Origin: a virus
DNA length: 64,000 nt
IMG/VR virus record: IMGVR_UViG_3300036760_000193
Coordinates: 129,204-193,203 of that record
Reading direction: 5' to 3' (one strand)
In this document: positions 34,708 through 59,171 of the stretch, one piece after another
How the letters are laid out: each line of letters opens with the position of its first letter
Numbering within the stretch: the stretch's first letter is position 1
Notes under the pieces: model-generated
The model's database searches: none
What the model was told of the DNA's origin: nothing
The model's input: the letters and a program-made list of their open reading frames with translations, nothing else
Translations under genes and position numbers: made by a program

Positions 34708-34708
34708 T

Positions 34709-37319: not shown

Positions 37320-37607
37320 TTATTCTCCTCTATTCTCTTTCTGTTCTTTTTCTTCTAATACTTTCGCCTCTTCTAATTCATCTGCTTCTTGCTGTTCAGT
37401 TTGCTGTTGTACCTCTATCTGTATGCCTTTATCAACACTATTAATGCCTTTCTTTAGGCAATTAATTGAGGCAACAAGATATTCCTGCGCCTGTAATAAA
37501 TCATTTTTATTGTACTTCGAAAATTTACCACGTACAGATTCAAACACATCGCTGACTGCGATGAGATTGTGAACAACTTCTTTTAATGTTCTGTATTCGC
37601 GGCTCAT
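37320..37607 (-). CDS. Hypothetical helical protein between terminase and portal
   Basis: A 95-residue helical protein with a very acidic, Gln/Glu-rich C-terminal coil (EEAKVLEEKEQKE). Its ATG overlaps the terminase stop (ATGA). Its place between terminase and portal suggests a packaging accessory, but no motif supports this. Confidence 0.6.
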   Translation of the reverse strand: MSREYRTLKEVVHNLIAVSDVFESVRGKFSKYNKNDLLQAQEYLVASINCLKKGINSVDKGIQIEVQQQTEQQEADELEEAKVLEEKEQKENRGE

Positions 37608-39836: not shown

Positions 39837-42800
39837 TTACTGCGCCAGTTGTGGAGATTGTTCGGAACCTGTGGCTCCTGTAAGTGCTTGATAAGCGGCA
39901 TTTACATTCTCCAACATATAATTGATTATGTCCATCATGTCAGCCCGTTTGTCAAAACGTGACAGTTGTTGACTTTGTGCTTTAGGGAAAGGAATGATCT
40001 GACGCTTCTCAACTGGTTTTGCATGGGCTTGTGCGCCATTCAAAGCATTTTCTAAATACTTAGTGATCTCAGGGAATTTCTCAATTGCAGCCTTCAGCTT
40101 CTCTGTTGCCGTCCATTTAATCTCTTCCTTACCTTGTTCTTTAACATAGGCAAGGAGTGTGCTATCGACTTCAACGACTTTGGCATTCAAGGTCTCAAGA
40201 GCAGAATATAATTTTTGTATGCCCACTTGATATTGCTCTGTTAATGCTTGTTCACCACCTTGTTCTTTGACTTTACGAGCATCATCTACGGCCTTTTTCA
40301 TAATCTCATCAGCAGCAGTTTTGAGCATTTGAATCTTTATCTCAGTATCTTTAACTTGATTGTATAAATTATTTACAATGTCAGGAGCCAAAACAGGAGT
40401 TTCTTCTCTCAAACCTTCGGGGGCTTTCTTCCAAGGTTTGGTCATCTCTGGGCCTTTAATTTCTGGCTCTACGGCAGGTTTAGGATCAGCTGGAGATACA
40501 GTTTGTTTAGGAACCTTATCACCAGGAGCAGCTTCCTTTTCCTTACCATATTTAGAACAATTGGGGCATTTGTTATCGGGATGCAATGGAAGGTCTTTAC
40601 GACCACATTGGGTGCAAGGAACATTTTCATCTTTTGGATCAAAGCCATAAGGATTCTTAGAAGCTGCTTCTTTATCTTCTACACTTTCGTTATCAAACGC
40701 CCAATGGCAAGAGTCACATTTATTTAATTTATGGCCGAAAGCGGGAGTGACATTTGTACTACCACAATGTGGGCATTTAAGTTTAGCAGGAGCCGCTTCT
40801 TTCAAAGACGATGCCATATTCTCTTTTTCTTCATTTGCTCTTTCTTGTGCATTAGAAAGAATACTATAAAGTTGTTTATAGTCTACATCTATGCTCACGC
40901 CACTTACATTTTGAATTTGATAATCACTGTACCCCTTCTCTTCCAACATTTCAGTGACACGTTTAGCAAGTGCACCTGTAATGTTCTTCTCATCCAAGCT
41001 GGGGTTTTCTAAAATTTTACGTATTACTGGATCAGATTCTAATTCATCAGTATTAAGCCATGCTCGAACCCACGCATTTGCATCAGCTTTGGATTCTGCT
41101 TCTTTTGTAAGTTCCGCATCAACACCTTTAATCTCAGCCATGATAGATCGCAACTCTGCTTGGGCACTTCTAGCTTTTTCTTGTTCGCGTTTTCTTTTAC
41201 GGTCAGCAGCAAACTTTACAAGGCGTCTAAATTCCGAAGCACGTTTAATATCACGCATAGGAACATCTTTGATGTCCCCATTAACATCTACAAAACCAAA
41301 TTCATCTCCACCAGACGAGAATTTTCCAACTAAAGTACCTTCATACCCACCTTCTCCACTCTGATAGTCTTTCATGACATAAACTTTAGCATCTGGGCCA
41401 GGAACAATTTCATCTTCCTGTACCTGCATAATATCACCTGGGTCTGGCGAAGCAGCTGGGTCGTCCTTCATGTCATCTGACATGTTCGTTTCGTCAGGTA
41501 GAAAATCAAAATCTTTTCCCATCTCAGGACGAGATTTGGGGATAGTTTCAAGAGGTTCTTCTGCCACTTTCTGTATTTCTACACTTTGGGTAGCAATCTC
41601 ACCTAATGCCATATCATGTTTTTCTATTTCATGTTCCAATGGTGGTTCAACAGCCGGGGGTTTTGTTTGATCGTCTACTTCTTTGACCAATTTATCATGG
41701 GTCTCAGGAGAAACTAAATCTGCTGGGGGTTTTGGTGCTGAGGGGGCAGCTGGAGCCGCTGGGTCTTTAACTGGAGGTTGCCCAGGAGTTTGACCAGGTA
41801 CTCCACCGTGTTCTGCTTCACGAAGAGCATCAATGTATGCAGCAACACTATCTTTATCATATTGTAATTCTTTGGTAAAATAGTTCTTAATTTCTTCCCA
41901 GGTACGCCCCTTCGTTCTAAAAGCATCAATAAGTTCATCATCAGTTTCGTCAAATGTGGATGCTACTTTACGTTCAAGAGCACTTTTAACTTGGTCTTTA
42001 ACTTCTCTCTCTATACGTTTTGTTAAACTCTTTGATTCTTTGGCCTTATTTTTCTCGTAATCCTCATATGACAAAGATGATGGAGCCAAACCATCTTCTG
42101 GTTGATCTTCACCAAGTCCTTCTCCAAGACCTTCCCCTGGCATTTTGTTCTTATCCATTGGAGGAAGATCGTCTTTGAAATCACCAAGTTGCTTACCACC
42201 AGGTTGATTTTTCTTGTTCATTTCCTGGTATTTCTGTAGCTCTTCTGGCGTTTCAAAAAATAAATTTTGCATAACTACTTTGGCAACTTTACCCAAAGAA
42301 GACTTCTTCTGTTGCGCCTTCCACGAAGCCCATTCTTTGATCCACTGATTCAGTGTTTTTTCGTCAATATTAAATCCCATACCTTCTTCATTAGCAACGT
42401 ACATGAGATGATTCATAATATCGTCTTGGTCAGCAATATATCCCATACGAGAATTTTCTTCTTCGTATTGGCTAAGAACTTGGTCAATCCATTCAGGGCT
42501 ACCAACATCTTTAGATGTGTCGTCGATATCATCCAATTCATCTGCTTTGACTTTCTTAGAGGCATTTGTATTTGTAATTGGAGCGGGGCTACCGTCAACA
42601 AGTTCATCGGTATAAATAGAATAACGTTTTAGGAGAGAACGAACAAGAGAAGCAGCGGATTCCATTTTCTCTGTTCTGGTAAGGTCAGCAGCCTCTTGTA
42701 GGTCGGACTTCATTGACCCATACAAGTTTTGGGCTTGCATTTCATCTTGAAATTGTTTTTCGTAAACTTTGTTCTTAGAATCAGTCCAAAATAAAGAAAC

Positions 42801-42947
42801 CACAGATGTAGACGACTGATCTGTGGATGGGGTGTAAGCAAGACTGATTGAACGTACATTACTTCCTACTGCTGTAGGGTCAACGACGTTAAATCTTTCC
42901 ATCACTGGCTGTTCAGAAGCAAATAAATTACGTAAAAATTCGTACAT
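39837..42947 (-). CDS. Large zinc-ribbon protein, probable packaged/internal protein
   Basis: A 1036-residue modular protein with long acidic Pro/Gly linkers (250-300, 385-440). It has two zinc ribbons: C725/C728 with C744/C747, and C778/C781 with C794/C797. A possible KOW/SH3-like segment (about 519-570) and helical regions at both ends are visible. The pattern hydrophobic-x-K-x-A occurs at 218-222, 458-462, 576-580, 613-617, 874-878 and 882-886, mostly in linkers. It has no recognisable enzyme domain. Its position before terminase, its linkers and the shared pattern suggest a head-internal protein cut by the prohead protease. Confidence 0.55.
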   Translation of the reverse strand: MYEFLRNLFASEQPVMERFNVVDPTAVGSNVRSISLAYTPSTDQSSTSVVSLFWTDSKNKVYEKQFQDEMQAQNLYGSMKSDLQEAADLTRTEKMESAASLVRSLLKRYSIYTDELVDGSPAPITNTNASKKVKADELDDIDDTSKDVGSPEWIDQVLSQYEEENSRMGYIADQDDIMNHLMYVANEEGMGFNIDEKTLNQWIKEWASWKAQQKKSSLGKVAKVVMQNLFFETPEELQKYQEMNKKNQPGGKQLGDFKDDLPPMDKNKMPGEGLGEGLGEDQPEDGLAPSSLSYEDYEKNKAKESKSLTKRIEREVKDQVKSALERKVASTFDETDDELIDAFRTKGRTWEEIKNYFTKELQYDKDSVAAYIDALREAEHGGVPGQTPGQPPVKDPAAPAAPSAPKPPADLVSPETHDKLVKEVDDQTKPPAVEPPLEHEIEKHDMALGEIATQSVEIQKVAEEPLETIPKSRPEMGKDFDFLPDETNMSDDMKDDPAASPDPGDIMQVQEDEIVPGPDAKVYVMKDYQSGEGGYEGTLVGKFSSGGDEFGFVDVNGDIKDVPMRDIKRASEFRRLVKFAADRKRKREQEKARSAQAELRSIMAEIKGVDAELTKEAESKADANAWVRAWLNTDELESDPVIRKILENPSLDEKNITGALAKRVTEMLEEKGYSDYQIQNVSGVSIDVDYKQLYSILSNAQERANEEKENMASSLKEAAPAKLKCPHCGSTNVTPAFGHKLNKCDSCHWAFDNESVEDKEAASKNPYGFDPKDENVPCTQCGRKDLPLHPDNKCPNCSKYGKEKEAAPGDKVPKQTVSPADPKPAVEPEIKGPEMTKPWKKAPEGLREETPVLAPDIVNNLYNQVKDTEIKIQMLKTAADEIMKKAVDDARKVKEQGGEQALTEQYQVGIQKLYSALETLNAKVVEVDSTLLAYVKEQGKEEIKWTATEKLKAAIEKFPEITKYLENALNGAQAHAKPVEKRQIIPFPKAQSQQLSRFDKRADMMDIINYMLENVNAAYQALTGATGSEQSPQLAQ

Positions 42948-43162: not shown

Positions 43163-44587
43163 TTACGCCTTTACTTCATGCTCTGGTTGTTTCTCTGTTG
43201 GGGCGACTTTTGTAAAAGTCCAAACGCTTCCACTGTTAGCTTCCTTGCTAAGATTATTTTGATCTTTAGAAGTTAGCTGCCAATGAAATCCATCAGCATA
43301 TACTTTTTCGCCAATTTCCATATCTTCGGGAATGCCATAGGAGGCTAGAGTGTGTTTATCAATGTTTAGAACATCAACAGGGCCGATGAATTGAACGCCG
43401 CCGACTTCTCCAGCAGTTTTTGTAATTTTTTCTTCTTCAAATGCTGCTGTAGTTTCATTCTCTTTCCAAAGTTCAGCTTCATCAATATCTTGAATACGAT
43501 CCAAGGTTTCTTGTGTGATTGATTCTGCAATTTTGCTTTGTAGGTCAGCTGTTTCGGAAACCAATTTAGCGATGACTTCTTTCTTTGGAAGTGAATAAGA
43601 GAAATCACGAACTGGAACTGAGAAAGTTACAACCTTCTCACCAACTTCGTCGATAAGAGAGGCAGTCACTTTGAAAGAAGCTGCATCAGAATTGTCAACG
43701 GAAAGGACTTTGACATCATTGTATCTTAGATTGCGAAGATGCGCGACAACTTCATTGGCAAGTTTTGTTGACAATCTGTCGATCTCTGCTTGAGTTTTTT
43801 GGCTCTCAAACTCTTCGGCTTGGCGGTAGGAATCTGCTTGATGACCTAAAAAGAGATTACCCTCTTCTACGGCCTCAACTGGCTCTTCAAGAGCAGCGGT
43901 CTTCGTCACTGTTTCTTTATTGAAATCAGCAGCAGTGATGATGCTCTCTACTTGAATGGATTGAATAGATGGTTCCGAAAATGACCCAGCGTAGCTAAGT
44001 TCATAGTGGTTTTCTAGAATGGAATTCTTAATTTGATTCTCAAGGGTTTCTTTGAAGAAAGCTTCTTTGTCTTTCAAAGATTCGTATTCTGCCTTGCTGA
44101 TAACACCAAGCTCTCTTCCAGAATCTAATGCAGGATGGTAGACCTTCAAATAGTCAGAACCGTCATCATGAAGAAGGAACTGGCTTAGGTCGGCTTGAAC
44201 TGGAAATGCTTGTACAAGGTCAATAGTCTCATCGGCTGTAGTTTTAATTTCAGCTGAATCAACTAAACTCTTTAATTCTGTGTCATCAATCAATTCTACA
44301 GTGTTTGCTTTGACAGGAAGAGAAATCGAAATAGTCTTATTCCCTACATTTGCGTTAACTGTGATTGATCCATCGAAAACAATGTCAGAAGTGGAAGCAC
44401 CTGCTACCTGCGTCAGAGTTGTCTCTGTGGCAGAGGCGATCTTACCATTCCCATACAATGTGAAAAATCGTGTAAGTAATTTGTTTTCGCTATCCCGAAC
44501 AAGTTTTTCTTTGGCCTCATCAATTCGAGCCGCTTCTAGTTCAGTGGATTGGCGATATGTGTCCGGAATCCTGTAAATTTCATTCAT
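43163..44587 (-). CDS. Internally duplicated head-region protein
   Basis: A 474-residue protein with two related halves. Residues 9-110 and 252-355 share a pattern: D-T/S-Y-R-Q, a charged helix, then a strand-rich part with KTISISLPV matching KVVTFSVPV. The halves are separated by V227-T-K-T-A231. The same pattern follows the second half (I388-T-K-T-A392) and recurs near the end (L446-S-K-E-A450), so the duplicated units could be released by cutting. The ribosome binding site AGGAGA overlaps the upstream endonuclease stop codon. Function unknown. Confidence 0.6.
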   Translation of the reverse strand: MNEIYRIPDTYRQSTELEAARIDEAKEKLVRDSENKLLTRFFTLYGNGKIASATETTLTQVAGASTSDIVFDGSITVNANVGNKTISISLPVKANTVELIDDTELKSLVDSAEIKTTADETIDLVQAFPVQADLSQFLLHDDGSDYLKVYHPALDSGRELGVISKAEYESLKDKEAFFKETLENQIKNSILENHYELSYAGSFSEPSIQSIQVESIITAADFNKETVTKTAALEEPVEAVEEGNLFLGHQADSYRQAEEFESQKTQAEIDRLSTKLANEVVAHLRNLRYNDVKVLSVDNSDAASFKVTASLIDEVGEKVVTFSVPVRDFSYSLPKKEVIAKLVSETADLQSKIAESITQETLDRIQDIDEAELWKENETTAAFEEEKITKTAGEVGGVQFIGPVDVLNIDKHTLASYGIPEDMEIGEKVYADGFHWQLTSKDQNNLSKEANSGSVWTFTKVAPTEKQPEHEVKA

Positions 44588-44598
44588 TTTGTGTTCTC

Positions 44599-44994
44599 CT
44601 ATATAGCCTGATGGCCTTTTAAGTATTCTTGTGCTTTCAATTTGAAACGCTCAAAAATCCCAAGATGTGTGTTGCAAGTACCACACAGTAAACTCCTAAC
44701 AACTCCTGTTTCATGATTGTGGTCTACTGATAGCCTTCGCACAGTATCTTTCTGATTTATTCCGCAAATTGCACAACACCCATTTTGTTTATCAAACAAA
44801 TAAAGGTACTCTTCAAAAGAAATTTGGTATCGCGCTTTAATATTGCGCTTGTAGTGCGCCAACTGTCCCTTAAGAGTGGTATTATATTCCCTCTGACAAC
44901 GTTTTATGTTTTGTCTTCCAGTGTCAGACTTCCTATATTCTTTCATGTAAACTGCTCTTTCTTCTTTTGTCATCATAATTGTATGTCTAGACAT
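44599..44994 (-). CDS. Endonuclease VII-type HNH homing endonuclease
   Basis: 131 residues from ATG 44994; starts at codons 7 or 8 (MMTKEER) are also possible and would give a usual N terminus. It has C74-C77, the catalytic D91-H92-N93-H94 and C104-C107, the zinc-bound beta-beta-metal layout of the endonuclease VII family. Free-standing phage copies usually act as homing endonucleases. The gene lies between promoter copy 4 and the 474-residue gene, and its TAG overlaps that gene's ribosome binding site, as if inserted between promoter and gene. Confidence 0.85.
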   Translation of the reverse strand: MSRHTIMMTKEERAVYMKEYRKSDTGRQNIKRCQREYNTTLKGQLAHYKRNIKARYQISFEEYLYLFDKQNGCCAICGINQKDTVRRLSVDHNHETGVVRSLLCGTCNTHLGIFERFKLKAQEYLKGHQAI

Positions 44995-45058: not shown

Positions 45059-48000
45059 TCAGTCAGACCTTGGTTGCCCAAAGAACCACGTCACTTCGTA
45101 ACTTCCGATTGGCGGGGTCTGTGTAGGCTCCAGAAGGTCTAAGTTAATCTTCTGCTTTCTCTCTGTATCTTCAGGCTTAGGGTAATCCGTTGTTGACCTA
45201 TTCCAGTCATGGTAAACGTTTCCACCGCTACCATCACCACCAGGCAGGTCTTCTGCGTGTTGCTCGTCGTAAATTTGCTCCATTTCGTCGTCAGTATAGG
45301 TATTTGACAGGTTTCCAGCGTATTTATAAGTATTTATAATTTTATCTTGACTAGCTGACATCCTCTGTAATGCCAATTCAAGTAGGTCTCGAACTTTTTG
45401 GTAGTCTTTCAACTCCCCACCAATTGGGTCTGCAATGTCCAAATCCCCCATTAAAAACGTTTTTCCTTGAGCTTGTGGGAATAAATCCATTAAGTCCTCT
45501 ACTTGCCAGGTCTCCATTACAAAAATTATATCTGCCTGGGCTACATCCGCTTCTGTCACCTGTGTAGATGTGTGAAGCTGATAAGGTATATTTTTCTCTT
45601 TCAAAACCTGTTCTACAAATGGAGCCGTCTTACCCCCACTTGGAACGTATAGCCCACGCGAAACCACATTCAAATCAGGACGAATGCTACGTAAAATGTT
45701 TTCTGCCATAGGGCTACGGCAAGTGTTGCCAGAACATACAATAAGAACGTTCTTCACTGTCCCCACCGCAACTTTAGTTACATCTCGTTTAGATAGGCCA
45801 GCTGCCATAGCAGGTTCTTCATCCCGCCAATGTTGCTTGTGAACCCTGATGTAGTCCATAACTAATTTTCGGACAGGAGTAGACGCCCTTTGAAGTAGAT
45901 AATTCAGAGAATTTTTCTGGGCTTTCATATCCAATAGTTTTTTGAACCACTGATGCCATTCCTCAAATTTATCCAAAAGCTTTCCTGTATTGTGTCCTAA
46001 ATCATGGAAATGGTCTATCAATACAACAAGTTTCTGCAAATCTGTTGTATTTTGCATTTCATGGATTGTTCTGGCAACCTCCGCCCATAATGGTCCACCA
46101 TACTGATGCTTCCACGGAGCGAACTTAAAAATTTTATAAAAATCAAAAGCAGAATATTCACTAAAATTATCTGGAGCTTCATACCACGCCCCACCAGCAC
46201 CACCGACATATCTACCTTCACCAGCATGTTTCTGTAATCTAATCTTGCGACGAGATTCAAACTGAAATTGTAATTGCTTCTTCTGATTCTCTTGAAAATC
46301 TTTGTCTATGTCTAGCCCCTGTTCATAAGAAACTAGATTGTGACCATTATGTTCTCCGTCTTCAAGCGTATCAGCTGCATCCAAAGACCCAAGCGCGTCA
46401 TCTTGGATTATCTTTGGAACAACAAATTTATGGTCGTCTGTACAATAAAATGCTTCTTCTTTTAGAGCCTTAGCCAAAACATCATCGTAACATGAGTCAC
46501 AATATGTACTTTCATTAAAAGAATACGCACTGTCATCATCCAATCCTTCACTACAATTCTCACAAGAATAAGGGTATTCATATTCATCTTCTCTATCAGG
46601 ATCGCCAGAATAATTTCCCGAATATCCAGAATCATGATATTCGTAATATGGCTTTAATTCCTCTGGAAAGTCATCTTCTGGTATTCCCTTAACCCATTGT
46701 GTAGTTTCTGCTTCATCTTTTAATTCAAACATCCCACGACGAATATATTCTTCACGCAAAGATAGAACGATATTTTGAAAAATCCTAAATCCATCATAAT
46801 GTTCTGGGTCAACATTTTTTCCAGAAATTTCTTCTGGTGGTAGTAGGGACATCAAATAAAAATCAACTACATCTTGTTGCTCTACAGCTTCTTTTTGTAA
46901 ACTACCACGTCGATTAAAAGTCCTGCGTACTTCTTGTTGTAAGGATTTGAACGGCCACATTACTTCAGCATAGTTATCACTTAAGTCCGCAACTATAATA
47001 GGTTGACCATCTTCCATGAAAGTTGCTAAAGTATTGTCTATATAGGAAGGAAGATTCTTAATACTGGCAACTTCTACGCCCACCATGCCTCTTGCGCGAG
47101 AAGTGTCACCAATTCTAGCCCAGCCCTTTTCTAACATTTCACGGGCTACATCAAAATAATCTCTCTTTTTGGCATCAACAATTCCATATTGTTTTTGCAA
47201 TAAGGGGGCGTTTCTCAAAACCCACTCACCATGAGTTCTAGCTCCACCTTCTCTGGCATTATATGCTTTTCCATCAGGGGCTACCCAGAATCCAAATTGA
47301 GAAAATGCACGTTTAGAAAGAGGCATTTCAGCCTTGCCTTCTTCCATTAACATCTCATTTACTTCGTCTTCATTGCTGTAGTTCGGGCCGGTAGGCTTCT
47401 TCATGAACTTCCAAGGATATCTCGAATTCAAATTCTCATCATTGGTTCCCCATTCAAATGTGGTTGGCAAAGGCTTGAAAGGTTCCAAATCTTGGCTTTT
47501 GGATGATAAAGGCAACCCAACTGACTCTGGTTTTTGGTCTACTGGTTGTGGCGGTTCTGAAATAGGAATATCATTCTGTGGTTTATTCTTTTGTTCTAGG
47601 TCTTGCATAAATCTATTAACTTCGCGCTGCAAAGACTTGAATGGGTATTTTACAGTAGCCCAATCATTCTGATATACGTCTTCCACATGAATCATTGATC
47701 CATCTGTAGCAAATGACGCAAGAACATCTTCCACAATCGACGGAATGTTATGAATATCTAATGTTCTAATACCTACCTGAGAACCATGATAATCACCAAT
47801 ACGAGTCCAACCTCGTTCTATTAAAATAGAATTGATGTCGAATGATTCCTCACTAGATAAATCTTTTGGGAGACTAATTTTATACTTCTGCCGTAACATG
47901 GTTCTATTGTTCTCAATCCATTCAGCATGAGTAATATCTTTGCCTGTTTCTTTACCACGAACTTCATAAACTTGTTTATCTGGGGCAATCCACCAGGCAT

Positions 48001-51000
48001 GAGCACTGAAAGCAGTTGTTTCAAAATTAGCATGTTTAGAAAGACCTAGAGTCGCTACTTGTTTCTGTCGTAATGGGTGCAGAAATTCATTAACAGCCTG
48101 TTGTAAAGAAGGAAATGGATCGGTGACAACTATAAATACAGAAGTTAAATCTTCAACTCCAATCTGATGTGGGTCTTCATTTGGATCAAAAAATTTGTCA
48201 ATTATATTGTCAGCAACTGAGGGTAAATTATGTAGGTCTTTTACCTCAATACAAAATTGAAATCCACCCATATCATTAGTGACTCTGACCCACCCAGCTT
48301 CTAACATACCAGGAATTATATTCCAAGCATCTTGCAGTAATAAATGACTGTCATATATATCAACAAATTTTGCAAGACGTGGGTCTTTGGAGTGTGTCTG
48401 AATCCAACCTGGATGTGTCTCACCCTTTAATGGTATAAACTCACCATCTGGGGCTACCCAGTATTTTTGATCTAACATAGCTTGTTTAGACTGAACTTCC
48501 CCAGTTCCACCTGTGGGAATCTCTTGAAAATTCTTCAAATCAAAAATAGAAATCTGATTGTGCTTTTTACCAAGTTCTATAGCTTTCTCACGATCTGAGA
48601 TCGTTAAAGAGATGTCCAAATAGTATTTGCCGCCATTATTCCAAATTCCAAGACTATTATCTGGACTTTGTAATAAATCAGCTTTACTCTGAATATAATT
48701 ATTCAAATCTTGAATGGTTGGTTCGTGATCTAAAACAACTGAATGCTCTGGGTATATAGAAACAGCATAGTTTTCAGTCCCAGATAAATTGCCCTTTGAA
48801 AAATTCCATGTGGCACCGCCAGTTTCTCTAACCAACTTAATAATATCTGGTAATACGTCAGCATGTTTCAATAACACTGCAACACGCTGTTCCCGCTGTT
48901 TAGGCTTATTATCTAAACGATGGCGCAACTCATACACTATCTTCTCTTGGATATTTCCAATTGGATCGTCAACCAAGGCATTATTTCCGCTGTAATCATT
49001 AAACCATACACCTTTCTGAATGTTAGGATCAAAGAACTGTTCAACAAAAGGTTCCACAGAAGCTGGCATTTTATTAATATCCCAAACTGTTACCATAAAT
49101 TGTACACTACTATCACCAATTGTAACTCTTGCCCAGCCCTGCTCTTCAATCATATAATCATAAGCTTGATCTAGTAGATACTCACCATCTGGTGTACCTT
49201 CTGTTTCGTATAGTTTATCAAAACCCAGATCATGCCAATTATTTCTTATCCAATCAATATGAATACCATGTACTTTGAAATATTCTCCCTGGGGAGAAAT
49301 CCAATACTTAAAATCAAGAGCTTCTTTATTAAGAGACGCAGCCATAGGCGTTTGGCGTTGTATCATTTTCTTTCTTTGTAATTCCTTATTAACCGCTCTC
49401 TGTAATCCAGAATGCCAATTTGTAACTTCAACCCATGTTCCGTCAGCATCTTCCAAAGTTACAGGAGTATCCGCCCCCATTGTTGATAAAAGATGCGATT
49501 CGATAAAATCTGGTATGTCTTTAAGACTTAAAAGATGAACTCCAAGTTTACGATGATCGTCAGAAATACGTATCCATCCATGTTCAATTAATTGAGAAGT
49601 CGGATTTTCGTCTTCATACAAGTCGATATTGTATTGATCGTGTAGCATAGTTTCATTGGTCTTTGCCCAATCATCATGAGTTACACCTTCCCAATTAGAG
49701 TAACTGAAATTACCAAAATTATAAAATTTCCCATTTGGGTCGAGCCAACCACGGGCAGCACTGGCCGTCTTTTCTGTTGATGCAGTTTTATCTTCTTTGA
49801 AGAAATCTAAAATCTTCTGCCATATACCCTTGCGTGGTTTGTCAGCATGTTCTCCGCCTTCCCAAGTCTCTTCATCAGATACTGTGTCTGGGTCCAATGG
49901 TATTTCTACATCACTATCACCTTGCCAAGGATTATCAGGAGCTTGAACAATAGACGGCATGAAAGCAGCAGCTTTTTCTTCTGGTGCGTAAAGGTCTCTC
50001 AGTATTTGTCGTTTAATGTCTTTGGTTGGTATATGAACAGGACGTTCTCGTCCGCCTCTATCCATTATTGTAACATAACCATAACCTACTTTATCATTCA
50101 AATATTGGTTTAACCAATCAGGTATCATTTCTACATCCCACACCAATACTTTTGGTGGTGAAGATTGATCGTCTATAGCTATGTAACCTTTATTCAAATA
50201 TTCTTCATAGGCTTCTTGAGTTAATTCAAATTGGCCTGGATCAACAACATGTGGGGCGTCTCCTGGAGTAAACCAATGAAGTTTAGCTTTCTTTTCCATG
50301 AAATAAGCTACTATATTGACAGAAGAGGTCTTGTTTTTCATCTCTTCTCTGTCTCTCTTCATCCAATATTCATGTTCTGCGGCTCTATTCCAATAGTCTT
50401 CTGTGAGATTAATTACCTGATCTAGCTTCGTAAAAATACCCGTATTATCAGAGTATGAATAATCATGACCCATAGATCGAACTATTTCAGCGTGTTCAGC
50501 GGCAAAGGCATCCCATAAATAAATGTTCCCATTAACATCCATATAATAACGCACAGAAGGCTCTTCGCTTTCATTAAAACAAAGTTCTGCTTCATCCAAT
50601 GTCGGATTTTTGTAAACTTTTACAATTTTACCATGTCGTGGTACTTCAATAAGTGTAGCGGCCTTTCGTCTCTTATCAGTCTTGGAGTATCTGGCGTCTT
50701 CAAATTTATTTGCCATATCTCTTGCTACTTCAACAGTTTCTAAAAATCCAGAATTTGAATTTGCACGTCCAAAATTCAGCCCCAAATATGAAGCAGCAGC
50801 ATGATGTGTAAAGGAACTGGCGTTCCATATATATAAATCTCCATTATCTGTAGCTCCCCAACGAAGTTCCATATACGATGAATGAGTTAATAGTTCTTCG
50901 GCATCATCCGCAGTGGGATTCTTTGTAATAGCTCCCCAGTTATTTATCGGTATGACTTGATCTGACGCCTCTTTCTTATTTCCACCACCAAGAGTGATAA

Positions 51001-53140
51001 AAACAGGATCGCCGTCTTTGGGAGAGAATTTAACGGTGTCAAGTTCAAGTTCCAGACCGTCTAATATGTCCACACCAGCGTACTCTTTTCCAAGTCCGCT
51101 TTCCACGTATGCAACTGTGCAATGGGGATGATAGTCTGGTTGTTGATCTTCGTTATCTAATTCCGAAAGTTTCTTGTGAAGCCTATCAATATCTTCACTG
51201 TCTACCTCAATAAAAATGGCGTCCATATCGTTCTCAAAAACCTTAGTCTTCTTGAACTTTACTCTTACAGGCTTTTCATCTTTTAGAATCTTCTCTACAT
51301 CTTTTGAATCATTAGTAAGGAGGCCGAATAGAACGGTGATGTGTGATTCCAACTCTCTACCATATCTCTTTGTGTCATCATCATACAAATTCTCATTTGG
51401 TATGTTCTCTACGCTCCATTCCACGATCTTTTGGGCTATGTCTTTTGGTAAAACAAAGTGGGTAGAGGAATAATCGTACTCAACGTTGTGCTGCGCTGTT
51501 TTGGCTACCATACGTTGACGAACAATAGCTTGATTAACGGCGTTCTGCAAATTTGGAAAGGGGGAAGAAATTTCTACAGTTCCTACATTGTCTTCGACTT
51601 CAATATTTCCTCCCTTATAATTACTTGCTATAAAATCGTCTATATATTCTGGAATTTGTTTCTTATTAGAAAGTTCTATGTTGAATGAACTTGCATCTTC
51701 GTAGGAATCTCCAATACGTACCCAACCAGCGGCTATTAACTCGTAAAGTGACTTCTCTACATTTCTACGTGCCCAACCATCGTGTGTTTCTCCGTCATCT
51801 AATGGAATTACTTTACCTCTGGTGTCTATCCAAACACGAACATCACCGATAGAGGCTTTCTTTTTGGTTTTAGAATGTCCTATTGTGTCAACAACATCTT
51901 TCCAATCCGTAAATACAATGTTACGGTCGTCAATGTAATATTCTGCGATAGGTTTGCCAATAAAAATTTCATCATACGGAATGTCATGTTTCTTCATGAA
52001 TTCTCGTATTTCGTCTGCACCTTCTGGAGTATTTGCTCTGCCACTGTAAATTATAATATTCCAGCCTTCAGATTTCAGTTTATCAAAAGCCTCTTTGACT
52101 CCAGGCATTGGGTCTGATATTTCTCGATCTGGCGTATTCTCAGCAATGGTCTTATCAAAGTCGATCATCAACTTATTGTGATGATTGTCTTCCAAACCAG
52201 CTTTCTTAACAGGCTCTGTTACAATTTCTTTGATCTCAGGAATGACATCTTCTGTTACTTCAATGGTTTCCTCTGTCACTTCCAATAAATCTTTAAGCTG
52301 TGTAATGATGTAGAAATACCCAAACCGTTGAAGATACTTAAATTTAATCTCATCTTCAGACGTGGCATCGAACTCCTTTGTGTGCCGGATCTGAACCATC
52401 TTTGTTTTTATATCAATGAGTTCTTGGATTTCAGTCTCTATGTGTTCAAGTTTGGCATCTAACTTTTCTTTGAACAATTTCTTCGCTTTTGAATCCCAAG
52501 CCTTGATTGTCTCTTGAAGTTCTTCCACTTTAGAAATTTGACGTTTGATGTCTCCAAGGCTGATATCCAATTCTCCAGCCAACTTAGCGGCATCTTCAAC
52601 AAATTTAGGTTTGGACTCCTCGATGTCAAAATCCATACTAATTTTAACAGGGTCTTTTATCCACTTGTCCTCCTGTACGTCGTATATGCCAACGCGAGTA
52701 GTATCATCGGATGATTTGGGAGTTACAAAATAGAATTCAGCGGGGTGTTTGGTTCCTGGTAAAACAAAAGATGGGTCACTGAAGAATTCCTTTCTTAGAC
52801 CGTCTAAGAAATCTTCAGCTTCTTTGGCAGATGCTCCAGCTTTTTCTGATTCTATGAACTTAGGAAAGTCCACATATATATGAATATCACAATCCGAGGC
52901 GGATGTATATTGGTAGGTTGTTAAACTTCCAACGATATGAATGGATTTATACCAATCTTCAAAATGCTTAAGACCAGCGTTTTCGAGGTTTTGATTTAGG
53001 CGGGATAGGATAGCTTCTTTGTGTTTGGGCAGAAGCTGTCCATCACTGTCCCAGACATTAGGGTCAAGGCCAGGGTGTGGATAATCGAGTATTGATGAAA
53101 ATTTATGAAACACATTGTTGGTTCTTGTTGAAATATTCAT
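45059..53140 (-). CDS. Giant polyvalent polyprotein: NTase, HAD, 2H, zinc ribbon, LMW phosphatase
   Basis: A 2693-residue multi-enzyme protein. Domains in order: polymerase-beta-type nucleotidyltransferase (about 60-175; GS at 71-72, D83-x-D85); HAD phosphatase (323-422; D327-F-D329-K-T331, YSGR at 365-368, DD at 404-405); 2H phosphoesterase (556-720; H600-I-T602 and H673-C-T675); a duplicated NPT-x-x-E-A-E/WDA module (738-915); a module ending EIPTGGTG (1417-1547); zinc ribbon (C2193, C2196, C2214, C2217); a module with YGGPLW and IDHFHDLGHNTG (2305-2445); LMW tyrosine phosphatase (2463-2597; C2469-x5-R2475, D2571). Six copies of another module are interspersed. Linkers carry hydrophobic-x-K-x-A sites. 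This matches polyvalent proteins, which phages package and inject. Its ATG lies 38 bases inside the upstream HNH gene. Confidence 0.88.
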   Translation of the reverse strand: MNISTRTNNVFHKFSSILDYPHPGLDPNVWDSDGQLLPKHKEAILSRLNQNLENAGLKHFEDWYKSIHIVGSLTTYQYTSASDCDIHIYVDFPKFIESEKAGASAKEAEDFLDGLRKEFFSDPSFVLPGTKHPAEFYFVTPKSSDDTTRVGIYDVQEDKWIKDPVKISMDFDIEESKPKFVEDAAKLAGELDISLGDIKRQISKVEELQETIKAWDSKAKKLFKEKLDAKLEHIETEIQELIDIKTKMVQIRHTKEFDATSEDEIKFKYLQRFGYFYIITQLKDLLEVTEETIEVTEDVIPEIKEIVTEPVKKAGLEDNHHNKLMIDFDKTIAENTPDREISDPMPGVKEAFDKLKSEGWNIIIYSGRANTPEGADEIREFMKKHDIPYDEIFIGKPIAEYYIDDRNIVFTDWKDVVDTIGHSKTKKKASIGDVRVWIDTRGKVIPLDDGETHDGWARRNVEKSLYELIAAGWVRIGDSYEDASSFNIELSNKKQIPEYIDDFIASNYKGGNIEVEDNVGTVEISSPFPNLQNAVNQAIVRQRMVAKTAQHNVEYDYSSTHFVLPKDIAQKIVEWSVENIPNENLYDDDTKRYGRELESHITVLFGLLTNDSKDVEKILKDEKPVRVKFKKTKVFENDMDAIFIEVDSEDIDRLHKKLSELDNEDQQPDYHPHCTVAYVESGLGKEYAGVDILDGLELELDTVKFSPKDGDPVFITLGGGNKKEASDQVIPINNWGAITKNPTADDAEELLTHSSYMELRWGATDNGDLYIWNASSFTHHAAASYLGLNFGRANSNSGFLETVEVARDMANKFEDARYSKTDKRRKAATLIEVPRHGKIVKVYKNPTLDEAELCFNESEEPSVRYYMDVNGNIYLWDAFAAEHAEIVRSMGHDYSYSDNTGIFTKLDQVINLTEDYWNRAAEHEYWMKRDREEMKNKTSSVNIVAYFMEKKAKLHWFTPGDAPHVVDPGQFELTQEAYEEYLNKGYIAIDDQSSPPKVLVWDVEMIPDWLNQYLNDKVGYGYVTIMDRGGRERPVHIPTKDIKRQILRDLYAPEEKAAAFMPSIVQAPDNPWQGDSDVEIPLDPDTVSDEETWEGGEHADKPRKGIWQKILDFFKEDKTASTEKTASAARGWLDPNGKFYNFGNFSYSNWEGVTHDDWAKTNETMLHDQYNIDLYEDENPTSQLIEHGWIRISDDHRKLGVHLLSLKDIPDFIESHLLSTMGADTPVTLEDADGTWVEVTNWHSGLQRAVNKELQRKKMIQRQTPMAASLNKEALDFKYWISPQGEYFKVHGIHIDWIRNNWHDLGFDKLYETEGTPDGEYLLDQAYDYMIEEQGWARVTIGDSSVQFMVTVWDINKMPASVEPFVEQFFDPNIQKGVWFNDYSGNNALVDDPIGNIQEKIVYELRHRLDNKPKQREQRVAVLLKHADVLPDIIKLVRETGGATWNFSKGNLSGTENYAVSIYPEHSVVLDHEPTIQDLNNYIQSKADLLQSPDNSLGIWNNGGKYYLDISLTISDREKAIELGKKHNQISIFDLKNFQEIPTGGTGEVQSKQAMLDQKYWVAPDGEFIPLKGETHPGWIQTHSKDPRLAKFVDIYDSHLLLQDAWNIIPGMLEAGWVRVTNDMGGFQFCIEVKDLHNLPSVADNIIDKFFDPNEDPHQIGVEDLTSVFIVVTDPFPSLQQAVNEFLHPLRQKQVATLGLSKHANFETTAFSAHAWWIAPDKQVYEVRGKETGKDITHAEWIENNRTMLRQKYKISLPKDLSSEESFDINSILIERGWTRIGDYHGSQVGIRTLDIHNIPSIVEDVLASFATDGSMIHVEDVYQNDWATVKYPFKSLQREVNRFMQDLEQKNKPQNDIPISEPPQPVDQKPESVGLPLSSKSQDLEPFKPLPTTFEWGTNDENLNSRYPWKFMKKPTGPNYSNEDEVNEMLMEEGKAEMPLSKRAFSQFGFWVAPDGKAYNAREGGARTHGEWVLRNAPLLQKQYGIVDAKKRDYFDVAREMLEKGWARIGDTSRARGMVGVEVASIKNLPSYIDNTLATFMEDGQPIIVADLSDNYAEVMWPFKSLQQEVRRTFNRRGSLQKEAVEQQDVVDFYLMSLLPPEEISGKNVDPEHYDGFRIFQNIVLSLREEYIRRGMFELKDEAETTQWVKGIPEDDFPEELKPYYEYHDSGYSGNYSGDPDREDEYEYPYSCENCSEGLDDDSAYSFNESTYCDSCYDDVLAKALKEEAFYCTDDHKFVVPKIIQDDALGSLDAADTLEDGEHNGHNLVSYEQGLDIDKDFQENQKKQLQFQFESRRKIRLQKHAGEGRYVGGAGGAWYEAPDNFSEYSAFDFYKIFKFAPWKHQYGGPLWAEVARTIHEMQNTTDLQKLVVLIDHFHDLGHNTGKLLDKFEEWHQWFKKLLDMKAQKNSLNYLLQRASTPVRKLVMDYIRVHKQHWRDEEPAMAAGLSKRDVTKVAVGTVKNVLIVCSGNTCRSPMAENILRSIRPDLNVVSRGLYVPSGGKTAPFVEQVLKEKNIPYQLHTSTQVTEADVAQADIIFVMETWQVEDLMDLFPQAQGKTFLMGDLDIADPIGGELKDYQKVRDLLELALQRMSASQDKIINTYKYAGNLSNTYTDDEMEQIYDEQHAEDLPGGDGSGGNVYHDWNRSTTDYPKPEDTERKQKINLDLLEPTQTPPIGSYEVTWFFGQPRSD
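46913..47296 (-). repeat. Polyprotein THxxW module, copy 6
   Basis: Encodes residues 1949-2076, with FWVAPDGKAYN, RTHGEW, KGWARIGD and WPFKSLQQEV. The clearest copy of the repeated module. Confidence 0.8.
47597..48001 (-). repeat. Polyprotein THxxW module, copy 5
   Basis: Encodes residues 1714-1848, with AWWIAPDKQVYEV, ITHAEW, RGWTRIGD and YPFKSLQREV. Confidence 0.8.
48065..48472 (-). repeat. Polyprotein THxxW module, copy 4
   Basis: Encodes residues 1557-1692, with YWVAPDGEFIPLKG, ETHPGW, AGWVRV and DPFPSLQQAV. Confidence 0.8.
48911..49318 (-). repeat. Polyprotein THxxW module, copy 3 (divergent)
   Basis: Encodes residues 1275-1410, with YWISPQGEYFKVHG, HIDW and QGWARV. The histidine of the TH pair is kept as HIDW, and the SLQ end is degenerate. 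Confidence 0.65.
49355..49759 (-). repeat. Polyprotein THxxW module, copy 2
   Basis: Encodes residues 1128-1262, with GWLDPNGKFYNFG, VTHDDW, HGWIRISD and SGLQRAVN. Confidence 0.75.
50396..50614 (-). repeat. NPTxxEAE/WDA module, copy 2
   Basis: Encodes residues 843-915 (YKNPTLDEAELCF, then DVNGNIYLWDAFAAEH). Related to 50711-50929. This module resembles one I recall from other phage and prophage polyvalent proteins. Confidence 0.65.
50711..50929 (-). repeat. NPTxxEAE/WDA module, copy 1
   Basis: Encodes residues 738-810 (TKNPTADDAEELL, then TDNGDLYIWNASSFTHH). Related to 50396-50614. Confidence 0.65.
51506..51856 (-). repeat. Polyprotein THxxW module, copy 1
   Basis: Encodes residues 429-545, with VWIDTRGKVIPLDDG, ETHDGW, AGWVRIGD and SPFPNLQNAVN. 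It sits between the HAD and 2H enzyme domains. Confidence 0.75.
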
Positions 53141-53570
53141 GCGCCTTTTGATTGAACCCCTTATCTTCTAAAATTCCCAGGCGGACATTACAACGATAAC
53201 ATAACAATCCACGTACTGCCCCTGTTTGGTGGTTGTGATCCACGGCTAAAGAACTTTTAAGTTTTGATTGGGGCGTTCTACAAATAGAACATTTTCCCTG
53301 CTGACTCTTATAAAAACGCTTGTAATCTTCTATTGTAAATACAGACCCGTCTAAATTTCTAATGCCTTGAATTTTCCACGCCGCTTTACGTGCGGTTTCT
53401 CTATGTTTTTTAAGATTCTTCTTTTTGCATTTGTAAACAGATTCCTGAAGTTTTTCAGGATTTTCTTTACCCCATTTATGGCTGTGTTCTCGTCTGCATT
53501 CTTTACAAACTTTGTAAGAATCTCTACCTACTACAAATGTGTCATGTTTACGTTTACAGAATTGTTTCAT
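53103..53570 (-). CDS. Endonuclease VII-type HNH homing endonuclease
   Basis: 155 residues. N-terminal Cys set (C5, C22, C25), a basic helical middle, then C94-C97, catalytic D111-H112-N113-H114 and C124-C127. Its catalytic half is similar to the HNH protein at 44599-44994, so the two are paralogues. The stop codon lies 38 bases inside the giant polyprotein gene, whose start is embedded in this gene. Free-standing, with its ATG one base after the stop of the serine protease gene. Confidence 0.85.
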   Translation of the reverse strand: MKQFCKRKHDTFVVGRDSYKVCKECRREHSHKWGKENPEKLQESVYKCKKKNLKKHRETARKAAWKIQGIRNLDGSVFTIEDYKRFYKSQQGKCSICRTPQSKLKSSLAVDHNHQTGAVRGLLCYRCNVRLGILEDKGFNQKAHEYFNKNQQCVS

Positions 53571-53571
53571 T

Positions 53572-54282
53572 TTACTTCAAGTCTTTCAAGAAGAACCTAA
53601 CGGCGTCTAAACTCTGCGCGATATTCAAATGCGTCACACCGAATCCTACAATGAATCCGGCAGTAGCAATACCAACTAGCTTACCATCATCATCAAATAC
53701 CGTGCTTCCTGAATTGCCTGGAAGAACACCACAATCCAACAAAATATGATCTCCGTCTATTTTCGCAATGACTCCCTCTGAATAGGTGTCTTCAATGCCC
53801 AATGGACTTCCAATAATATGAATCTTTTGCCCTCTTTTAATCTCCTTAGCCAGGACAAAGTGCTGTGTATTAGAACGGTCGATATGAATGACAGCCATAT
53901 CATGTGCAACAGATACACTACTTACAATAGCAGCATAGTGCTGTTTATCAAAGGTTTCTACTTCAATAGAGTCTATGTCTCTAGTGCAGTGCTTAGCGGT
54001 CAAAATGTCTCCATGATCGTTGATAAAGGCACCAGAACAAACGTAATGGACTTCCCTCGATCCGTTAAAAATAGCTTTCTTCTTTTTAGAAGCTTCTGGA
54101 TAATCTGGGATTTCTACTAATCGCGTGATATGAAGTTCTACGATTTTTTGTTCTACTGGAATAATCACGGGGGCTACTACAACAACAGGTGCTGGTTTTG
54201 CAACTTTCTTAGCTGCAAAAACCGTCGGTATCGAATTCATAATCAAGGCAGTGCAAAATAAAAGGGTCAAAAGTCTCTTCAT
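53572..54282 (-). CDS. Secreted trypsin-like serine protease
   Basis: 236 residues. Residues 1-24 are a signal peptide (MKRLL, hydrophobic core, PTVFA cleavage site), followed by a Pro/Val linker at 29-45. The catalytic triad of the chymotrypsin fold is intact: H98 in LTAKHC, D128 in AHDMAVIHID and S191 in LPGNSGST. C83 and C99 could form a disulfide. The protein should be exported to the periplasm or outside the cell. A DegP-like fold without a PDZ domain. Secreted serine proteases are unusual in phage genomes; it could act on host envelope proteins, on superinfecting phage receptors, or on phage fibres. It precedes the polyprotein in the same operon. Confidence 0.88.
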   Translation of the reverse strand: MKRLLTLLFCTALIMNSIPTVFAAKKVAKPAPVVVVAPVIIPVEQKIVELHITRLVEIPDYPEASKKKKAIFNGSREVHYVCSGAFINDHGDILTAKHCTRDIDSIEVETFDKQHYAAIVSSVSVAHDMAVIHIDRSNTQHFVLAKEIKRGQKIHIIGSPLGIEDTYSEGVIAKIDGDHILLDCGVLPGNSGSTVFDDDGKLVGIATAGFIVGFGVTHLNIAQSLDAVRFFLKDLK

Positions 54283-56387: not shown

Positions 56388-59171
56388 TTAGTAGGTAAAC
56401 TGAGTGTCAGCTACCATGTCCCATGTATTTGAATCTATATTGAACATCCACTTCATGCCTTGTGGCAGAGTAACGCTAGGTTTCGGAGGCAGCGCAGCTT
56501 CGGTTTCCACAGTCTCAGGAGCCACATCAGCAGCTTGAGTTTGTGTCTGCAATACCTCTTTAGTTTGAGTCATTTTCGTTCTCATCTGTTCTACATGATC
56601 TGTAAGATCATCGGCTTGGATGCGAAGTCCTTTCTCTTTTGCGAACTTCAAAAACTTTTTATAGCAATCTGGGCAGTCTTTAGCTAAATCATTCAAAACT
56701 TTAACACTTTTAATGCGAACAATTTTATCCGTTTTGGACAAAGGCATAAGAGATGCTTCATGATCCTTTTTTTCTTTCTTACGCTTGCAATCACGGCAAA
56801 GAACCTCTTCACTATATGTCATTGGAACTACGGCCCCACATTCTTTGCATTTTTGATCTAAATGAGGTTTACGGTCTGCGACGATCTCGAAATCGAACCT
56901 GTCGAAGGATGTCCAACCAGTAACGCTCTTCATTTCCAAAGAAGCAAATTTAGCTTCTTTGCGTTTAACATCAATACTTACAATTTTAACTTTGTGTCCC
57001 TTCTTCAGAACAGAAAGATTTGTTTTCAGCGTTGCTCTTACAAGATCACGGTTTCCAAGCTCATTAAATACAATTTGTTCAATCTCAGGTTGAGATAGTT
57101 CATGATCTTTCATTGTAATTGCCATAATCTGTTGCCCTTGGTCATCAAAAATAACCCAAGCATCAGGAACACCAGGTTTACCGCTAGTTCTTTTAGCTGT
57201 CCACTTACGATTGGCAATATTCAGTTCCATTGTTCCTGTTGGCTCAGCTGCATTCAGAGAAACATCTTCGTCACGCTTTGGAGCTACTGCCATACCAGGA
57301 CGGTCTCCACCATATCCCATTCCGTCACCTTCTGCTCTTTTCTCTTTTTGTGATATTTTAGGACGGTATGGTTCAGTCCAAGTTGATTTGTTTTTTTCTT
57401 GGTCAATTAATTCGTGCATAAGTTCTGGGTCAACAACTGGTGGAGCTTCCTTAAGTGATTTGTTATAAGATTTCTCCCATTGCTTAAAAGGGACACCTAC
57501 TGGAGCAAATTTTGTGCCTTCCTCCCCTGTGAGACCATATTGATAGGCTCTTCCATCATAAGTGAATTGTAAGTCTGTTTTTGGATCACCGTATTTATCA
57601 ATGTATTGTTCAAGTAAATAATGCGTATATGTATCAAATAAATCTGCGTTTTTATCTAAAGAACTTTTATGGTGCTTAAAATATTCAACTTGTCGAAGTC
57701 TTTTGACAGCTTTTTCTTTGCTATCATAAGGCCCTCCAAGATTTTTTCCCTCTTCTGAAAGTACATGCCATCCGTCCTTTTCATGGACTACACGGCCTTC
57801 AACTTTCAAGGAAGCTTCTTTTTCTTCTACAATAGACCAACCACTTTTCATGGCACGATCCCAAGATAAATCTTGAATACGATGAAGTTTCATAAGCATC
57901 TCATTATAGGATGCTCCTTCACCACGGACTTCTCCATTGTATTTAAGAACAAACTTGCCACGCTTCAAAAAAGCTCTCTTCACGAAATTTGTGCATTTGC
58001 ATTCGTCACATTTTGTTTTACCATCATCTGTTTCATGGTCGAATTTCATGTGTCCACAAGAGCACTTCTCGTAAGAAATTTCCCTTGAAGCTTCGGCTTC
58101 TTTATCATTGTGCATAAAGGGCTGCATTAAATATTTGTCAGTTTTACATTTAGGACATTCTGTGATATCTTCGTCATAAACCCCGTAGCAATTATTGCAA
58201 CGAACTTTATCAGTGACTTCCTTGGCAGCACGTTTTCTTAGATCAGAACCTTTATAGGCTCCAAATCCATGATCTGCTGCCAGCTTTCCAGTATCCCAAT
58301 GAACATAGGCCATATCTTTATCTGCGTCATAACGCATGACACGACCATATGATCCAGCAGTACCATAAACAGGTTCTACAAGATCATCAAGAGCAAACTT
58401 ACTCACATCTGCATGTTTGTCCGTTGTTGCTTCTGGTTTTATTTCAGTTTCTTTAGGAGTTGCTTTTTGGCCTTCCGCATAGTAGTCCCAAGGTGTTTGC
58501 TGATTAACCGCAAACTCTTTGTTAAAACACGCTTTAAGTTTTTCACGATCTTCTTCATTTTGTACCCTCTCTATTGCTCTCTTGAATTTAACAATGGTGT
58601 CATACTGTGGGTCGTCGGCCATAATCAAATAATCGAGCATTTTCATGTATAAGGCTGATGCAATCATTGAATCAAATTCTGGGTCTTTTGTTAAATCCAT
58701 TTTATCCAGTTTTTCTTCTGGTTTAGGCACTTCAACTTTTTTCTCAGGTTCTGGTGTAGGGGCTGGGGTTACTTCTGGTGCTGCTTCAGCGGTAACTGCT
58801 GGAGCTTCAACAGATGCGTCAACTGGAGTAGCTGCAACGGCAGCAGGATCAATAACTTGTTGGTCAACTGGCAAAGGAATAGCAGAAAGCATACCACCAG
58901 GGGCGGCTTCTACTGGAACAGTTTCTGGTTTTGCTTCTTCAGAAACAACAGTCTGTGTGGCAAGTTCTTTTTCTCTATTTTGTTTCTCAATAGAACGTTG
59001 TTTCTTTTTCTCCTGCATATCAGCATAACGAACTTCTAAATCTTTAAGACTATCAATAGCTGATTTTAACTCAGATGGATTAACTTTGCTCATGTCGAGA
59101 CTATCAATACGCTTACGAAGTGTATGAATTTGAGTGTAGAGACCCGCCTCTTTTTGAATGGTTGCGTTCAT
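56388..59171 (-). CDS. Large zinc-ribbon protein, probable packaged/internal protein
   Basis: 927 residues. I5-Q6-K7-E8-A9 at the N terminus and further hydrophobic-x-K-x-A sites at 256-260, 311-315 and 505-509 fit the putative protease pattern. Modules: N-terminal coiled coil (15-75), a Pro/Ala/Glu linker (80-150), a KOW/SH3-like segment (262-310), zinc ribbons at C325/C328-C339/C342, C370/C372-C388/C391 and C775/C778-C792/C795, plus C833/C836. A segment at 465-500 (GWHVLSEEGKNLGGPYDS) resembles a small domain I have seen in other phage proteins. No enzyme motif. Probably a DNA- or protein-binding head-internal protein. Confidence 0.55.
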   Translation of the reverse strand: MNATIQKEAGLYTQIHTLRKRIDSLDMSKVNPSELKSAIDSLKDLEVRYADMQEKKKQRSIEKQNREKELATQTVVSEEAKPETVPVEAAPGGMLSAIPLPVDQQVIDPAAVAATPVDASVEAPAVTAEAAPEVTPAPTPEPEKKVEVPKPEEKLDKMDLTKDPEFDSMIASALYMKMLDYLIMADDPQYDTIVKFKRAIERVQNEEDREKLKACFNKEFAVNQQTPWDYYAEGQKATPKETEIKPEATTDKHADVSKFALDDLVEPVYGTAGSYGRVMRYDADKDMAYVHWDTGKLAADHGFGAYKGSDLRKRAAKEVTDKVRCNNCYGVYDEDITECPKCKTDKYLMQPFMHNDKEAEASREISYEKCSCGHMKFDHETDDGKTKCDECKCTNFVKRAFLKRGKFVLKYNGEVRGEGASYNEMLMKLHRIQDLSWDRAMKSGWSIVEEKEASLKVEGRVVHEKDGWHVLSEEGKNLGGPYDSKEKAVKRLRQVEYFKHHKSSLDKNADLFDTYTHYLLEQYIDKYGDPKTDLQFTYDGRAYQYGLTGEEGTKFAPVGVPFKQWEKSYNKSLKEAPPVVDPELMHELIDQEKNKSTWTEPYRPKISQKEKRAEGDGMGYGGDRPGMAVAPKRDEDVSLNAAEPTGTMELNIANRKWTAKRTSGKPGVPDAWVIFDDQGQQIMAITMKDHELSQPEIEQIVFNELGNRDLVRATLKTNLSVLKKGHKVKIVSIDVKRKEAKFASLEMKSVTGWTSFDRFDFEIVADRKPHLDQKCKECGAVVPMTYSEEVLCRDCKRKKEKKDHEASLMPLSKTDKIVRIKSVKVLNDLAKDCPDCYKKFLKFAKEKGLRIQADDLTDHVEQMRTKMTQTKEVLQTQTQAADVAPETVETEAALPPKPSVTLPQGMKWMFNIDSNTWDMVADTQFTY

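Follow-up and report, generated by a model that had tools for sequence, protein, structure and literature searches.

A 2693-residue head-cluster polyprotein with a K-x-A motif at every module junction, a putative enzyme-cargo chain in a phage lineage related to phage G

The window, the whole stretch of DNA that was analysed, is the final 64 kb (64,000 nucleotides) of a 193,203-base viral record and carries a 2693-aa open reading frame (ORF) that begins at an ATG and runs as a single uninterrupted frame on the minus strand. The existence of homologous ORFs in other phage contigs indicates that this frame is coding. The sequence-only reading had proposed one 2693-residue frame within a structural operon, and both parts of that proposal are borne out. 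On the 3′ side of the polyprotein, and in the same direction, come a gene resembling endonuclease VII, two ORFs (474 and 1036 aa) and the genes for terminase, portal, head maturation protease and capsid, before the tail genes begin. The features needed below are listed in window coordinates, with an arrow marking a predicted cut.

30534–31502, minus strand: major capsid protein (MCP), assigned by gene order relative to phage G and without a family match
32230–34773, minus strand, likely ATG at 34707: head maturation protease with a C-terminal extension (phrog_18299), own sites SLVKIA↓AA and ISKNA↓SL at the protease/extension junction
34709–35128, minus strand: 139-aa head-cluster protein, KKEA/QKEA kept in three homologs following a divergent N-terminus, candidate propeptide
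35671–37317, minus strand: portal
37604–39220, minus strand: terminase large subunit
39837–42947, minus strand: 1036-aa head-cluster ORF with 15 K-x-A sites
43163–44587, minus strand: 474-aa head-cluster ORF with 8 K-x-A sites (3.1 expected)
45059–53140, minus strand: 2693-aa polyprotein ORF
53572–54282, minus strand: Trypsin_2/HtrA-like protease with an apparent signal peptide, a rival candidate for the cutting enzyme
56388–59171, minus strand: 927-aa composite ORF with 17 K-x-A sites (8.5 expected)
59184–61163, minus strand: 659-aa composite ORF (DUF7417, zinc ribbon, DUF7249) with 15 K-x-A sites (7.4 expected)

Several other genes of the window were recorded in passing. Endonuclease VII-like genes lie at both ends of the polyprotein gene (44599–44994 and 53103–53570), the upstream one overlapping the polyprotein start by 38 bases, and are possibly homing insertions. 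An ORF at 1413–2081 that opens with GIY...YVGS resembles, as read from its sequence only, a GIY-YIG homing endonuclease, and a peptide deformylase gene is found at 63273–63956 (phrog_2890, E 5e-40). In the 659-aa ORF, K-x-A lies between the zinc ribbon and DUF7417 and DUF7249, which are small phage families, and this ORF is possibly a second polyprotein. A PADLOC search gave no match.

The one chain combines no fewer than four enzymes with nine copies of repeat modules. Profile matches from PHROG, Pfam and TIGR, together with the key residues, confirm the domain order first read by eye, namely a nucleotidyltransferase (NTase), a HAD phosphatase, a 2H phosphoesterase, a zinc ribbon and a low-molecular-weight (LMW) phosphatase, and the catalytic residues that had been described as intact are in place. 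The NTase (aa ~18–219) matches phrog_36119 with E 8e-12 but the Pfam MTPAP-like palm with E 0.11 only, and its homolog in G017 matches PF01909 with E 0.0016, under the cut-off; the G-S...D-x-D signature of pol-beta nucleotidyltransferases is present as G71-S72...D83-C-D85 and is kept in six homologs. The HAD domain (aa 321–424; phrog_1238, E 4e-18; TIGR01689, E 1e-8) keeps the motif D327-x-D-x-T (DFDKT at 327), and the 2H domain (aa ~560–717; PF13563, E 3e-11) has both of its H-x-T motifs, H600-I-T and H673-C-T, present and kept. Assignment of this 2H domain as an Acb1 anti-CBASS nuclease was rejected, with PF23474 scoring 19.4 bits (E 9e-4) against a cut-off of 27. The zinc ribbon (C2193-x2-C/C2214-x2-C), for which a family search gave no significant match, had been listed among the enzymes and is not one.

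The LMW phosphatase (aa 2463–2594; PF01451, E 4e-23) has CSGNTCRS at 2469, which supplies the C(X)4CR(S/T) loop (C2469...R2475-S), and the catalytic Asp at D2571. Its best matches are YwlE-type arginine phosphatases (best PDB matches 4pic and 4kk3), and P-loop position PX5 is Thr (T2473) in both the window protein and its G007 homolog. At this position Thr confers phospho-arginine specificity and Ile phospho-tyrosine specificity (PMC8001253). For this reason the earlier label of tyrosine phosphatase is probably wrong, and the domain is probably specific for phospho-arginine. The C-x4-C-R-S loop and the Thr at the specificity position are shared with YwlE and S. aureus PtpB (PMC8001253); unlike those enzymes, the predicted phosphatase described here is embedded in a phage head-cluster chain.

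The repeated modules said to separate the enzymes are indeed found, as seven copies of a module A and two of a module B. The module A copies are highly diverse in alignment, with W, G, P and D invariant across all seven, and the one copy that was modelled forms a compact alpha/beta domain (pLDDT 88). A structure search with module A in BFVD and PDB gave no convincing match, and a search with one copy gave no phage match. The conserved modules M (aa 1428–1554), ZnX (aa 2086–2306) and X (aa 2307–2458) had been left unnamed, and the sequence-only reading had overlooked the main feature, K-x-A at all module boundaries. Cutting at these boundaries would give the following pieces, all on the minus strand.

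52199–53140, minus strand: piece 1 (aa 1–314), pol-beta-type nucleotidyltransferase, GS71-72, D83, D85; site PVKKA↓GL
51854–52198, minus strand: piece 2 (aa 315–429), HAD phosphatase, D327/D329; site TKKKA↓SI
51494–51853, minus strand: piece 3 (aa 430–549), module A copy 1; site VAKTA↓QH
50966–51493, minus strand: piece 4 (aa 550–725), 2H phosphoesterase, H600xT, H673xT; site NKKEA↓SD
50657–50965, minus strand: piece 5 (aa 726–828), module B copy 1; site RRKAA↓TL
50285–50656, minus strand: piece 6 (aa 829–952), module B copy 2; site MEKKA↓KL
49967–50284, minus strand: piece 7 (aa 953–1058), shortened module A; site EEKAA↓AF
49763–49966, minus strand: piece 8 (aa 1059–1126), short acidic conserved module (F(M/L)PS...); sites EDKTA↓ST, TEKTA↓SA
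49319–49762, minus strand: piece 9 (aa 1127–1274), module A; site LNKEA↓LD
48860–49318, minus strand: piece 10 (aa 1275–1427), module A; site LLKHA↓DV
48479–48859, minus strand: piece 11 (aa 1428–1554), module M (phrog_17808); site QSKQA↓ML
48029–48478, minus strand: piece 12 (aa 1555–1704), module A, the modelled copy (pLDDT 88); site LSKHA↓NF
47306–48028, minus strand: piece 13 (aa 1705–1945), module A and a Pro-rich linker; site LSKRA↓FS
46886–47305, minus strand: piece 14 (aa 1946–2085), module A; site LQKEA↓VE
46223–46885, minus strand: piece 15 (aa 2086–2306), ZnX module, CxxC...CxxC; site LQKHA↓GE
45767–46222, minus strand: piece 16 (aa 2307–2458), conserved module X; site VTKVA↓VG
45062–45766, minus strand: piece 17 (aa 2459–2693), YwlE-type LMW phosphatase (C2469, T2473, R2475, D2571) and C-terminal tail

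The consensus in the gaps of the polyprotein is (S)-L-x-K-(E/Q/T)-A↓S. K-x-A is found in 14 of the 14 inter-domain gaps, compared with a mean of 4.2 under random placement, and none of 100,000 random trials reached this value; the figure of 14 of 14 is partly dependent because some module limits (those of A and B) were drawn after the sequence had been viewed, and the relatives provide an independent check. The runner-up a-x-b motif reaches 8 of the 14 gaps. When residues are shuffled within each linker, 5.0 occurrences of K-x-A are expected in the linkers and 18 are seen, and the reversed A-x-K occurs only twice; the excess is therefore not a matter of composition. Six of 24 sites lie within domains, so that some matches cannot be cuts. 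Across the head cluster K-x-A ranks first of 2340 gapped residue pairs (115 vs 66), with L or I two residues before the K, E, T, H or R between K and A, and S or A after. The motif is confined to head-gene products in that it is neutral in the 159 early ORFs (149 vs 160) and depleted in the tail ORFs (16 vs 25, with KEA at 0). Processing of the MCP at QK(I/V)A↓QQML was considered and dropped, as K-x-A is not kept in the L021 homolog.

Relatives were reached only through the portal, which found five contigs, and the MCP, which found 60 IMG/VR contigs; IMG/VR scans with exact peptide patterns (whole protein and NTase) gave no match, an MCP search of genome contigs gave no relative, and tblastn with the polyprotein gave no phage G record at E 1e-5. 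A polyprotein match is present in 11 of the 31 relatives searched, many of the remaining records being fragments. These homologs, all from uncultured phages, share about 35–60% identity over shared domains (G007/G008, G024, G032, G017, G013 and G011, with weaker domain matches in G018, G027, G028 and G029). Module order differs between them: in G007 the modules are split over ORFs of 1479 and 1611 aa, the first holding ZnX, X and the phosphatase and the second NTase, HAD, A, 2H, B and M, and in G017 a probable ADP-ribosyltransferase (ART) domain lies between NTase and HAD. No ART-PolyVal, LPD or MPTase-type domain was found in the window protein, and the G017 homolog (L109) matches ART-PolyVal PF18760 just under the cut-off (E 2e-6, 29.0 bits vs 31.2). 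Modules also stand alone, with M being a 137-aa gene (gp108) in Rhodococcus phage Madraxi and the 2H domain a separate gene in uncultured huge phages. The combination of four enzymes had been called unusual, and within the lineage this holds, with NTase, HAD and 2H together in five relatives and the G007 phosphatase in a separate ORF.

The junction motif persists through this shuffling. K-x-A lies no more than 30 aa upstream of 49 of 58 domain copies in the relatives, compared with 0.11 per 30 aa inside domains, and their own logo, (S)-L-x-K-(Q/E/T)-A↓S-L, closely parallels that of the window (K-x-A 289 vs 171; A-x-K 144 vs 171). No enrichment is seen on their tail side (36 vs 43), and little in head genes within 10 kb upstream of the MCP (177 vs 156). 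Two further observations concern the relatives. In a close one (L010/L011), terminase and portal are 828 and 903 aa (L017 2425–4911 and 5168–7879), much longer than in the window, and the terminase stretch CCFSGNTKIRLLDG suggests inteins on inspection of the sequence. A gene with an IDHTLLxP-like start near the polyprotein in four contigs (L106 7833–8546, L107 4701–5444, L109 5365–6054 and L110 4984–5673) resembles deoxyribose-phosphate aldolase by eye and was not seen in the window.

The sequence-only reading had placed the protein among the polyvalent proteins. At least two unrelated enzymatic domains in one chain (NTase, HAD, 2H and LMW phosphatase), coding upstream of terminase, portal, head protease and MCP, shuffled homologs and the below-cut-off ART-PolyVal match in G017 all agree with that assignment. 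However, K-x-A at every module boundary argues for a probable cleaved polyprotein rather than a single multidomain effector. We infer that K-x-A is a cleavage site, and the question is then which enzyme would cut it. The head maturation protease itself carries K-x-A, both close to its N-terminus and where the protease part meets the K/A-rich C-terminal extension. At this junction the site follows (I/L)SK-x-A↓(S/N)L in the window, L010, L013, L029, L031 and L069; L057 and L012 have a looser K-x-A, and more distant relatives (50–67% MCP) have lost it. The protease model is poor (pLDDT 64, no fold match), so its identity rests on PHROG profiles and on homology to the phage G gene. Known head proteases offer precedents: SPN3US gp245 cuts after A-x-E with Ser preferred at P1′ and cuts long propeptides several times (PMC10052503), and in phage T4, gp21 fragments the core proteins and also trims internal proteins that are packaged (PMC5694885).

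We hypothesize that the ORF encodes a head-targeted cargo polyprotein, and we consider it probable that the chain is co-packaged and that the head maturation protease cuts it in trans, within the prohead, into about 17 pieces. The uncut chain would become part of the prohead core, in which the A and B modules would likely serve as scaffold or targeting parts by analogy with the phage T4 core and capsid-targeting sequences. The head maturation protease would then cut after K-x-A at each module junction to give about 17 single-domain pieces, and the enzyme pieces would remain with the DNA and be ejected into the next host.

An alternative hypothesis, which is in part compatible with the cargo polyprotein, is that the chain is mainly a scaffold or core protein in which modules A and B are structural, cutting at K-x-A serves only to break them down so that they can leave, as T4 gp21 does to gp22, gp67 and gp68, and the enzymes are passengers acting in assembly. 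Repeat modules do account for 9 of the 17 predicted pieces, and fragments of T4 core proteins leave the head (PMC5694885). However, catalytic residues are kept in the enzyme domains across divergent phages, and the confident model of module A shows a compact fold that does not resemble a typical coiled-coil scaffold; we consider this account unlikely. It is a weaker proposition that the protein is packaged and injected whole, with the K-x-A linkers forming flexible hinges or motifs to which a scaffold partner docks. Full-length travel is known for several polyvalent proteins, including N4 virion RNAP, ArdC and TraC1 (PMC5512222), and K-x-A could be a repeated binding peptide; yet the motif stands at every junction, is directional (K-x-A, not A-x-K), favours a Ser following the Ala and is found again at junctions of the head protease itself, all of which argue against an uncut chain and render it rather improbable.

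A different cutter might also be proposed, namely the HtrA/trypsin-like protease coded near the polyprotein. The gene for this protease adjoins the polyprotein in G007 and G024, is nearby in the window and is present in 9 of 13 lineage records (among them G007, G024, G018, G012, G023, G032, G017 and G013), and HtrA-type enzymes can take Ala at P1. However, its apparent signal peptide indicates that it likely acts outside the cytoplasm, its gene and the polyprotein are far apart in G017, G013 and G032, and it is the head protease that bears K-x-A at its own junctions, so we hold this candidate to have little chance of being correct. Finally, modules are indeed shuffled between phages, but that K-x-A is merely short DNA copied between cassettes by recombination, with no meaning at the protein level, can be nearly dismissed, since the codons (AAA/AAG; GCT/C/A/G) and flanking residues differ between sites, which points to selection on protein, and since other head ORFs and phage G are enriched in K-x-A as well.

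Both polyvalent proteins and prohead proteolysis have been described before. The former, as described by Iyer et al. in 2017 (PMC5512222), similarly place several unrelated enzymes per chain among virion genes, include pol-beta NTase, 2H and ART domains and show reshuffled domain orders in orthologs. For these, the proposal was that metallopeptidase domains process the chain in cis or that assemblin-like domains at the C-terminus do so, whereas no peptidase domain was found in the polyprotein described here, which is predicted to be cut in trans at many uniform sites, one or more at every junction; phosphatases are unmentioned in the main text of that work (PMC5512222). T4 gp21, phiKZ and SPN3US gp245 share with the present system a short tripeptide motif and a head protease that trims core and packaged proteins with several cuts each. 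The cuts in those phages remove targeting propeptides or shred scaffold, whereas here they are predicted to separate folded domains of one ORF, and the motif is K-x-A rather than the A-x-E of SPN3US. The herpesvirus assemblin (UL26-type protease-scaffold) likewise has a C-terminal extension with its own junction cleavage site, ending Ala↓Ser; a relation to the present protease is suggested by the kinship of phage and herpesvirus proteases, and we know of no enzyme-cargo polyprotein cut by it.

The closest named phage is Bacillus phage G (Donellivirus gee), with 32% identity in the portal and 33% in the head protease, and its head genes are likewise enriched in K-x-A (61 vs 36, rank 3 among pairs). 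In the phage G head region (L020, 1–45000) K-x-A is often followed by A, S or N. No description of the phage G protease site was found in the accessible literature. A literature search judged by title and abstract, with subscription journals thinly covered, found no account of trans cleavage of a phage chain at one uniform site in every module junction, and only Iyer et al. on the subject.

What might the cargo do? The NTase, HAD phosphatase and 2H phosphoesterase probably act in RNA 3′-end repair or in the destruction of nucleotide alarm signals. In jumbo phages, 2H and HAD enzymes are described as RNA 3′-end processors that work with RNA ligases (PMC7824862), and two RNA ligase genes lie outside the window at genome positions 9343–10464 and 85527–86498 (PF09511 T4 Rnl1-like and PF09414-type), whose products may cooperate with the putatively packaged 2H and HAD enzymes. 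For the 2H domain, destroying nucleotide alarm signals is the alternative role (PMC5512222, section 20). The YwlE-type phosphatase probably removes phospho-arginine marks from proteins; such marks are described as targeting proteins to ClpCP in Gram-positive bacteria (PMC8370763), and we infer that this marking is the phosphatase's target. A search on phages and arginine phosphorylation found no phage counter-case by title or abstract.

For this tailed lineage related to phage G as a whole, the balance tips slightly toward a model in which cassettes of injected enzymes sit between interchangeable K-x-A sites in one co-packaged chain and would be released in the head by the trans-acting head protease. 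With such uniform sites, cassettes could be reordered, gained (an ADP-ribosyltransferase, for example) or lost in evolution, and the cargo would include a phospho-arginine phosphatase that undoes host protein marking of the McsB/ClpCP type. To our knowledge, how several enzymes are loaded into a head in set proportions is open for most large phages. If the model is true, carrying the cargo as one chain, with a site for the protease at every junction, would fix the stoichiometry and let targeting modules be shared. Because sequence is enough to recognise the site, one can predict the mature cargo throughout an uncultured lineage (60 IMG/VR contigs), and the uncertain assignment as a polyvalent protein becomes testable. 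Should phospho-arginine prove to be the substrate of the phosphatase, the enzyme would be a candidate means for phages to counter this protein marking.
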